A stretch of 64,000 nt of DNA from assembly GCA_003168375.1 (NCBI GenBank), contig PMSI01000007.1:124001-188000 (forward strand), read 5' to 3'. Shown in pieces: positions 32,402 through 36,466 of this stretch (within the stretch, counting starts at the first letter, position 1; every line of letters starts with the position of its first letter). A program made the position numbers and the translations under genes. The notes under the pieces were generated by a model that was not told where the DNA came from, did not search any database, and saw only the letters and a program-made list of their open reading frames with translations. The DNA is from Vulcanimicrobiota bacterium. GTDB taxonomy: Bacteria > Vulcanimicrobiota > Vulcanimicrobiia > Vulcanimicrobiales > Vulcanimicrobiaceae.

Positions 32402-33446
<1,045 letters not shown>

Positions 33447-33447
<1 letters not shown>

Positions 33448-33489
33448 TCACCCTGACCCTTCGCCAAGCTCAGGATGACGTCGAAGGGG
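33447..33489. repeat. Dispersed repeat, copy 2 (full-length form)
   Basis: GTCACCCTGACCC-TTCGCCAAGCTCAGG-ATGACGTCGAAGGGG, lying immediately after the oppF stop. Both outer arms (GTCACCCTGA, and ATGAC with GTCGAAGG) and the core are present, so this looks like a complete unit of about 43 bp with partial dyad symmetry. Confidence 0.75.
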
Positions 33490-33497
33490 CGGCGGAC

Positions 33498-33532
33498 AAA
33501 AAAAATGAGGAGCGGTCGAACGACCGCTCCTC
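33498..33532 (-). terminator. Rho-independent terminator of the histone-like gene
   Basis: GAGGAGCGGTCG (33507-33518) pairs perfectly with CGACCGCTCCTC (33521-33532). On the minus strand the hairpin is followed by eight T (complement of 33498-33505). It lies 26 bp past the stop of the Lys/Ala-rich gene. Confidence 0.88.
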
Positions 33533-33558
33533 TCTGACATTCCGGTTATCGCCGGATG

Positions 33559-34074
33559 TCAGCCCTTTTTCTTGCGACCGCCGGCTTTCTTCTTGCGACC
33601 GCCGGCCTTTTTCTTGCGACCGCCGGCGGCTTTCTTACGCCCGCCCGCGGCTTTCTTCTTGCGACCACCGGCGGCTTTCTTACGCCCGCCCGCGGCCTTC
33701 TTCTTGCGACCACCAGTCTTCTTGGCAGCCTTCTTGCGACCGCCGGTCTTCTTGGCAGCCTTCTTACGACCACCGGTCTTCTTGGCAGCCTTCTTGCGAC
33801 CGCCGGTCTTCTTGGCAGCCTTCTTACGACCGCCGGTCTTCTTGGCAGCCTTCTTACGACCGCCGGTCTTCTTGGCGGCTTTCTTGCGACCGCCGGTCTT
33901 CTTGGCAGCCTTCTTGCGACCGTCGGTCTTCTTGGCAGCCTTCTTGCGGCCGTTGGTCGATTTCTTAGCGGCTGCTTTCTTGCGGCCGGCGCCCTTGCGG
34001 CGTCCGCCGCGGCGCTTCGCCGGTGCAGCGGCTGGTGCTGCGGCTGGTGCGCCGTTCGTTGTTTCCGAGTCCAT
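33559..34074 (-). CDS. Histone H1-like Lys/Ala/Gly/Arg-rich repetitive protein
   Basis: 171 residues, extremely basic. A short acidic/Ala-Pro start (MDSETTNGAPAAAPAAAPA) leads to [14 protein letters not shown]. Eight near-identical decapeptides AAKKTGGRKK follow, then shorter units of KKAGGRK type. Composition and repeat style match bacterial H1/Hc1/AlgP-like nucleoid proteins that bind DNA without sequence specificity. The ATG at 34072-34074 is followed by a plausible start. It is divergent from topA across 229 bp, and an own intrinsic terminator closes the gene. No globular domain is present. Confidence 0.8.
   Translation of the reverse strand: MDSETTNGAPAAAPAAAPAKRRGGRRKGAGRKKAAAKKSTNGRKKAAKKTDGRKKAAKKTGGRKKAAKKTGGRKKAAKKTGGRKKAAKKTGGRKKAAKKTGGRKKAAKKTGGRKKAAKKTGGRKKKAAGGRKKAAGGRKKKAAGGRKKAAGGRKKKAGGRKKKAGGRKKKG
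33721..33960. repeat. 30-bp coding minisatellite, eight units
   Basis: Exact 30-bp periodicity from 33721, each unit beginning CTTGGCAGCC and reading TTCTTGCGACCGCCGGTCTT afterwards, with scattered third-position changes (for example CTTGGCGGCT at 33871). Each unit encodes the decapeptide AAKKTGGRKK on the minus strand. Adjacent 33560-33715 holds shorter, less regular units of the same type. Confidence 0.95.
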
Positions 34075-34303
34075 TCAACCTCCTCGTCCGCGCGGACGGA
34101 GTTGTTCTATCCAAGACGCGCCGACAAAACGCCGACACATCGTTAGTCGCAGAATACACAGATTTCGTGTTTCGTGCAACTCTTGGCCCGGAGCGGCTGT
34201 TCCGCGCGCGCGCCGCGCGACGGAATTGGCCCGGCTTGACGTCCGGGTTTATACTGTGGCCCGAAGCTCGTCCTCGAGCGAGCCGTACCCGCTGGAGACC
34301 GTT

Positions 34304-36466
<2,163 letters not shown>

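Follow-up and report, generated by a model that had tools for sequence, protein, structure and literature searches.

Nucleoid proteins with lysine-rich repeat tails include the HU homologues HupB and HupS. In Chlamydia, Hc2 (encoded by hctB) is reported in the relevant part of its source to range from 165 to 237 aa through 36-aa elements (PMC2848022). AlgP of Pseudomonas is described, in the corresponding part of another account, as a DNA-binding protein with a histone H1-like repeat tail and a putative helical N-terminal domain of 124 aa, which associates with polyphosphate granules (PMC9239181). Basic repeats have also been tied to topoisomerase I itself: lysine repeats give processivity to Streptomyces TopA, and actinobacterial TopA is presented in the same part of that source as devoid of zinc fingers (PMC7398561). 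Polyphosphate and polyhydroxyalkanoate (PHA) granules were reported in 2022 for the first cultivated member of Eremiobacterota/Vulcanimicrobiota, and the part of the report concerned gives a complete genome of 3.50 Mbp for Vulcanimicrobium alpinum (PMC9758169; names as corrected in PMC10582173). The locus considered here belongs to the same phylum and lies in a 4.43-Mb genome of seven contigs. No publication describing the gene adjacent to topA came up among the entries listed by the literature searches made.

The H1-like gene and its repeat array

The window (the whole stretch of 64,000 nucleotides analysed) carries the following features in and beside the coding region.

33559..34074, minus strand: H1-like basic repeat protein, 171 aa; open reading frame with ATG, a divergent basic frame being found at 90 topA places
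34015..34074, minus strand: N-terminal segment ahead of the repeats (MDSETTNGAPAAAPAAAPAK); start without K or R, mostly acidic in relatives
33700..33952, minus strand: 30-bp array of eight units AAKKTGGRKK, one with D for G (Tandem Repeats Finder and unit reading)
33565..33714, minus strand: shorter units of 7 and 8 aa (GRKKAAG, GRKKKAAG, GRKKKAG) (Tandem Repeats Finder and unit reading)
Left neighbour of the H1-like gene: oligopeptide-type ABC ATPase (Pfam: PF00005 and oligo_HPY)

Eight 30-bp units with almost no drift, flanked by shorter relatives of the same unit, had been described in the original prediction, and both features were borne out. Tandem Repeats Finder returned a period of 30, 8.4 copies, 93% matches and a score of 436 for 33700-33952, the top score among 41 rows for the window (the next two, 204 and 121, fall inside the same frame), and related shorter units with periods of 21 and 45 for 33565-33714. 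When anchored on GRK, the eight 10-aa units displayed a mean pairwise nucleotide identity of 0.926 and differed from their own consensus by nine synonymous substitutions and one non-synonymous substitution. Along the protein, MDSETTNGAPAAAPAAAPAKRRGGRRKGAG is followed by (G)RKK repeats up to the C-terminus, with the 7- and 8-aa units coming after the 30-bp array.

Low complexity, together with long overlapping open frames on the opposite strand, would suit a GC-rich minisatellite with a chance open frame, an explanation rendered extremely improbable by the recurrence of start, Shine-Dalgarno sequence, promoter and composition at 90 places despite repeat turnover. That the frame recurs with a Shine-Dalgarno sequence at 90 topA places, and that it departs in length from the closest relative solely by 27 bp, in frame, both argue for a gene. 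On the sequence evidence, the frame is a real, order-wide, H1-like basic repeat gene, with a putative function read from its composition.

Repeat turnover and conserved composition

The nearest relative (G127) has seven units against eight in the window, and the two genes differ by 8 substitutions over 486 aligned bases and one 27-bp in-frame gap within the array. Within the genus, AAKKTGG occurs seven times in the window protein, six in G127, 10 in G121, four in G128, once each in G122 and G126, and not at all in G119, G120, G123 and G124, counts which compare different species with one genome per species and call for the caution due to repeats in MAG assemblies, where short reads may collapse them. 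A change in array length, which the original prediction placed between strains, is seen here between related species (the same unit difference and 27-bp indel), and the protein spans 86-171 aa (median 132.5) over 82 complete copies.

Composition was summarised for these 82 of the 90 copies, leaving out G035, G039 and G058 (contig ends) and G054, G061, G083, G093 and G110 (N stretches). Net charge per residue lies between 0.30 and 0.51 (median 0.43), acidic residues are confined to the first 30 positions in 80 of the 82, and F, W, Y, C and H are absent after residue 30 in 81. The basic tail of the window protein sets in near residue 20, and a tail of such composition would not be expected to fold. 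The H1-like character that had been proposed for the protein accords with this composition, which resembles that of histone H1 tails and Hc2. As for the N-terminus, the first 10 residues are without K or R in all 90 copies, at least two acidic residues stand among the first 16 in 89, and the loose motif M[DE]...N[GD][GED] is present in 52, a uniformity inflated by the weight that start-codon choice gave to acidic N-termini. The copy in G035 (L144) has GRPKAAVGRKKATV units, unlike other copies; we take these to look like AT-hooks.

Units, length and unit number turn over, with charge, gene position and control region staying much the same; the N-terminus, promoter and leader are conserved parts that the original prediction had not included.

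Distribution and gain of the gene

A search for topA in 149 genomes of the phylum gave a match in 139, of which 17 (families f13-f16) were weak, at about 30% identity. Upstream stretches were examined at 120 places plus the window; outside this set lie G025, G034 and G080, in which topA is at a contig end, and the ten genomes with no topA match (nine of them f1). Families f13-f16 were left out of the counts, and the topA pattern gave no frame in 12 stretches read there, nor in G010. A divergent K/R-rich frame beside topA was found at 89 places by filter and in G035 by reading, making 90 places in 88 genomes, all of f1 or f2. These two families form one order, in which the partner gene is present at 90 of the 94 topA places read; the other four (G029, G030, G069 and G086) stop 185-242 bp upstream, too short to tell, and in G086 the gene with its leader lies at the edge of a separate contig. 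No partner was found at 27 places (13 in f3 and 14 in f4-f12); it is absent from the 24 of these that have at least 1.4 kb of upstream sequence. Beyond the phylum, such a frame is lacking at all 36 topA loci that offer 700 bp or more upstream, counting ATG starts only.

Searches for the protein were also made genome-wide. A profile of 45 chosen copies (A4) matched the topA neighbour in all seven f1 genomes tried, matched the f2 genome G031 at a place other than the topA neighbour, and found nothing in any of the 17 genomes tried beyond these two families. With the window protein as phmmer query, none of the 14 f3 genomes was matched among 117 of the class. One search among relatives missed an H1-like gene on account of an N stretch (L023).

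In 7 of the 13 f3 stretches, topA is preceded on its own strand by a homologue of the window ABC ATPase (70-76% identity), which ends 160-641 bp before it, with no divergent basic frame between; the homologue was found in none of the 14 f4-f12 upstream stretches. This ATPase-topA neighbourhood without the basic gene suggests that the H1-like gene was inserted, and the ancestor of f1 and f2 would have gained it in the interval from the gene for the oligopeptide-type ABC ATPase to topA.

The genome of the window holds two HU genes elsewhere and a second H1-like frame of 100 aa without an acidic N-terminus (L002 1576-1875, G000:C7), so the role of the topA-adjacent protein may be specialised. Further genomes of the genus also have matches like this second frame at places other than beside topA. 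An unrelated 523-aa frame in the same genome (L241, G000:C4:809089-809250) opens with a lysine-rich repeat tail (MSTSKKTTRKKTTRKK...), which points to such tails having been added to further proteins in this genome.

Promoter, leader and terminator of the H1-like gene

The control elements of the gene in the window are as follows.

34151..34179, minus strand: predicted promoter TTGCAC-17-TATTCT (relatives' promoter finder)
34115..34141, minus strand: leader hairpin 1, stem with G-U pairs, just past the predicted transcription start
34085..34098, minus strand: leader hairpin 2 (CGUCC-GCGC-GGACG), immediately 5' of the Shine-Dalgarno sequence
34079..34084, minus strand: Shine-Dalgarno sequence AGGAGG (from the sequence; kept in relatives)
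33507..33532, minus strand: intrinsic terminator, 11-bp stem and T run (terminator scan)

A promoter near TTGCAT-17-TATGAT precedes 88 of the 90 copies, the finder having detected none in f2 (G031 and G032), and the spacer is 17 nt at 87 of the 88 places outside f2, a length to which the scoring gave a small bonus. Promoters of the window's own genus are weaker matches (TATTCT), and that of the window was not listed by a stricter consensus promoter scan. Terminator-like sites lie 3' of 54 of the 82 complete copies, compared with 1.6% of shuffles.

In most copies the leader is roughly 70 nt with two hairpins. The 88 leaders comprise 81 distinct sequences, which fold with a median z of -2.2 against shuffles; 47 of the 81 fall below -2, and the window leader stands at -1.58. 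The sequence of hairpin 2 is conserved and hardly covaries; the hairpin is absent in the g33 group and G129 and altered in G073b, G076, G077 and G035, and its loop differs in length between genomes, which speaks against a fixed DNA operator. In 43 of the 81 distinct leaders, no more than 5% of shuffles attain the stem of hairpin 1, and the alignments bear on this hairpin unequally. RNAalifold on the MAFFT alignment A1 called zero pairs, hairpin 1 varying in both length and sequence, and in A2, made up of 33 leaders chosen from a single class, covariation was absent from the named structure and shuffles did equally well or better. Compensatory changes in hairpin 1 were seen only in the model-fitted alignment A3 (120 matches reduced to 86 distinct and 71 kept, antisense and partial matches being dropped), with 693 of 726 cells paired against a shuffled mean of 0.905 and maximum of 0.917. 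As A3 leans towards the structure, the case for hairpin 1 was rested on differing 9-10-bp stems at the same place in G072, G076, G093 and G094, and the hairpin is likely, but not proven, to be genuine.

A further comparison is provided by the leader model R1, built from one leader class. It gave 19 matches above 30 bits in 19 of the 41 family genomes, all at the H1-like gene, including one in G086 at the contig edge beside that gene; one R1 search drew on 83 chosen sources. There was no match at E 0.001 in 20 of the 41, and three weak matches lay away from the gene. At E 0.1 the leader of the window itself went unmatched by R1, and other leaders of its genus were matched only weakly, so the window hairpins rest on position and folding (z -1.58). 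Rfam gave three matches up to E 1 for window positions 33400-34400, all far under the gathering scores.

Occlusion of the Shine-Dalgarno sequence by the leader was considered as a general mechanism and rejected, the mean unpaired probability being 0.412 for native and 0.416 for shuffled leaders, with 47 of 88 under the mean of their respective shuffles. Among leaders of the window's own genus, nine of ten hide the sequence more than the mean of their own shuffles.

These leaders bear on the proposal that RNA or ribosomes are the main target of the protein, which would use the hairpins to control its own mRNA. Repeats rich in arginine and lysine are suited to RNA, the R1 matches make the leader look gene-specific, and the behaviour of the own-genus leaders points the same way; yet the lack of occlusion across all 88 leaders, the loss or alteration of hairpin 2 in the genomes named above, and the many genomes that R1 either misses or matches elsewhere make this proposal very unlikely.

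topA and the shared intergenic region

On the other side of the intergenic region lie the following features.

34226..34255, plus strand: predicted topA promoter TTGGCC-18-TATACT (promoter scan)
34304..36466, plus strand: topA, encoding 720 aa with two stretches of Topo C4 zinc fingers and without a lysine-rich tail (Pfam)
3' of topA: GidA/TrmFO-type protein (Pfam), which we take to be TrmFO

With the topA start at GTG 34304 (Topoisom_bac, 410 bits), the gap between the two divergent genes is 229 bp, as originally predicted. A TTGAC-8/9-TATA element in the topA promoter (window 34236-34255) is present at 89 of the 90 places with the partner gene and at 16 of the 31 without a found partner, namely 12 of 13 in f3 and all four f1/f2 places cut short upstream, but it is lacking at the 14 in f4-f12; occurring also at partner-less places, the element probably predates the partner. 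A second TTGAC, about one turn upstream of the element in f3, looks like the -35. In many f1 genomes (e.g. L096 and L102) the -10 box TATACT ends about 7 nt ahead of the GTG, a short distance that points to a leaderless topA mRNA; at 63 of 89 places, 10-12 nt separate the end of the box from the first aligned topA codon, and in the window the distance is about 48 nt. A shared operator at fixed distance from both genes was rejected, the spacing from the H1-like -35 to the topA motif running from 8 to 316 bp.

trmFO adjoins topA in 27 of the 29 f1/f2 loci with at least 1.2 kb downstream, and the ABC ATPase lies within 1.8 kb of topA in 24 of the 29 with at least 2.5 kb upstream; five loci from four g33 genomes (L019, L022, L024, L026 and L037) have no ATPase neighbour and retain the H1-like/topA pair. 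Conservation of the neighbourhood as a whole lowers the weight of the adjacency. The idea that both genes are served by one intergenic region holds as regards the arrangement, which is kept through the order, but is weakened by the separate predicted promoters, their variable spacing, the topA motif at places without the partner, and the conserved flanks. Coupling of the H1-like gene to topA is plausible but unproven, and the earlier interpretation as a whole is partly supported.

Two TopA frames from other classes of the phylum carry basic repeats: L217 (G012) has a lysine-rich C-terminal tail (+19 net per 40 aa), and L216 (G011) stays open over 158 aa of basic repeats ahead of the enzyme (+15; putative start). 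At 28 loci of f1, TopA is without a basic tail and its net charge does not exceed +11 per 40 aa.

The H1-like protein might, on such grounds, be a separate-chain counterpart of the actinobacterial TopA lysine tail, binding both DNA and TopA and either raising processivity or setting the TopA level against compaction, whence the adjacency to topA. It is divergent from topA at every informative f1/f2 place (90), the five ATPase-less g33 loci included; TopA is tail-less in f1, yet basic repeats are carried by the enzyme of G012 and the frame of G011; and the lysine repeats of Streptomyces TopA confer processivity, as the cited part of PMC7398561 has it. Against this, the gene is missing from f3, where TopA also carries no basic tail (9 of 9 read), so TopA works without a partner, and 11 of 13 TopA frames in f4-f12 are also without a strong basic tail. 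The zinc fingers that the same source part denies to actinobacterial TopA are present in the window enzyme, gene order around topA is conserved anyway, and basic tails occur on unrelated proteins such as L241. This counterpart role is unlikely. An extension of it, of which we are no less doubtful, is that a basic DNA clamp fused to topoisomerase I elsewhere would in this order be a separate protein encoded beside it. TopA activity would then depend on the ratio of the two, the tail protein would be under the control of a dedicated two-hairpin leader, and tail length would evolve as repeats are gained and lost.

Proposed function

The preferred reading, to which a probability of roughly 0.6 is assigned, is that the gene product is a lineage-specific, abundant, intrinsically disordered DNA-packing protein that acts in the manner of chlamydial Hc2 or of a histone H1 tail. 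Its numerous, spaced (G)RKK clusters would bind and neutralise the DNA backbone, in which case selection would act mainly on charge, spacing and approximate length, and units could be gained, lost or replaced. A contact site may be formed by the short N-terminus without basic residues, the only stretch of the peptide that recurs. The gene's own promoter would drive transcription, and the two-hairpin leader of most genomes probably sets mRNA stability or translation. The anatomy and distribution of the gene, its recurrent promoter and leader and its absence from the relatives tested are established at the level of sequence; from there we infer its expression level, disorder, DNA binding, compaction and the role of the leader. 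The same composition would also suit binding to polyphosphate, RNA or TopA, HC2 scores fall short of the cut-offs, and the profile match in G031 is not at the topA neighbour, all of which tell against DNA packing.

A tether or spacer of polyphosphate or PHA granules on the nucleoid, like AlgP/PhaF of Pseudomonas, is another role to consider, given the H1-like, DNA-binding tail and granule association of AlgP (PMC9239181, relevant part) and the granules of the first cultivated phylum member (PMC9758169, relevant part). The 124-aa N-terminal domain of AlgP has no counterpart of equal size here, however, and the unit is RKK rather than KPAA, which makes a granule role distinctly unlikely.

The gene is a clear case of a protein that keeps changing its sequence and yet retains its charge, gene position and control region throughout a bacterial order. 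The 82 natural copies offer graded tail lengths and units for asking how many basic repeats DNA compaction, or help to a topoisomerase, needs. A tail acting on TopA in trans is the most interesting of the remaining readings.

Comparison with known systems

The window protein scored 20.8 bits (E 4.7e-4) against HC2 (PF07382; gathering cut-off 40 bits) and 22.4 bits against NF038052 histone_lik_HC2 (cut-off 135 bits), and is left unmatched up to E 0.1 by the Burkholderia H1-like model NF038053 (cut-off 80 bits; best other protein 24.4 bits, in G031). Among eight topA-adjacent relatives and the L002 paralogue, that of G031 alone passed HC2 (43.4). The protein is accordingly named H1-like and not assigned to the family. 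It does fall within the descriptive class of H1-like nucleoid proteins, namely highly basic low-complexity repeats without a folded domain, the lack of a fold being deduced from composition.

HupB and HupS differ from the window protein, which has no HU family match in the Pfam scan. AlgP/PhaF, as far as the cited part describes them, share the H1-like basic repeat tail, but an N-terminal domain of about 124 aa stands ahead of theirs; the window protein has no comparable helical domain, begins its tail near residue 20, is nearly all tail and repeats RKK, not KPAA. The C-terminal domain of actinobacterial TopA, on the portion of the source concerned, resembles it in having basic repeats tied to topoisomerase I, whereas here the repeats belong to a separate divergent gene and TopA keeps its zinc fingers and has no basic tail. 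Compared with Hc2, the window protein has a GRKK unit, a different N-terminus and scores below the cut-offs, and its position beside topA and its leader may set it apart as well; with Hc2 and the Burkholderia type, as those are portrayed in the source parts available, it shares small size, richness in lysine, short repeats and a length that depends on them.
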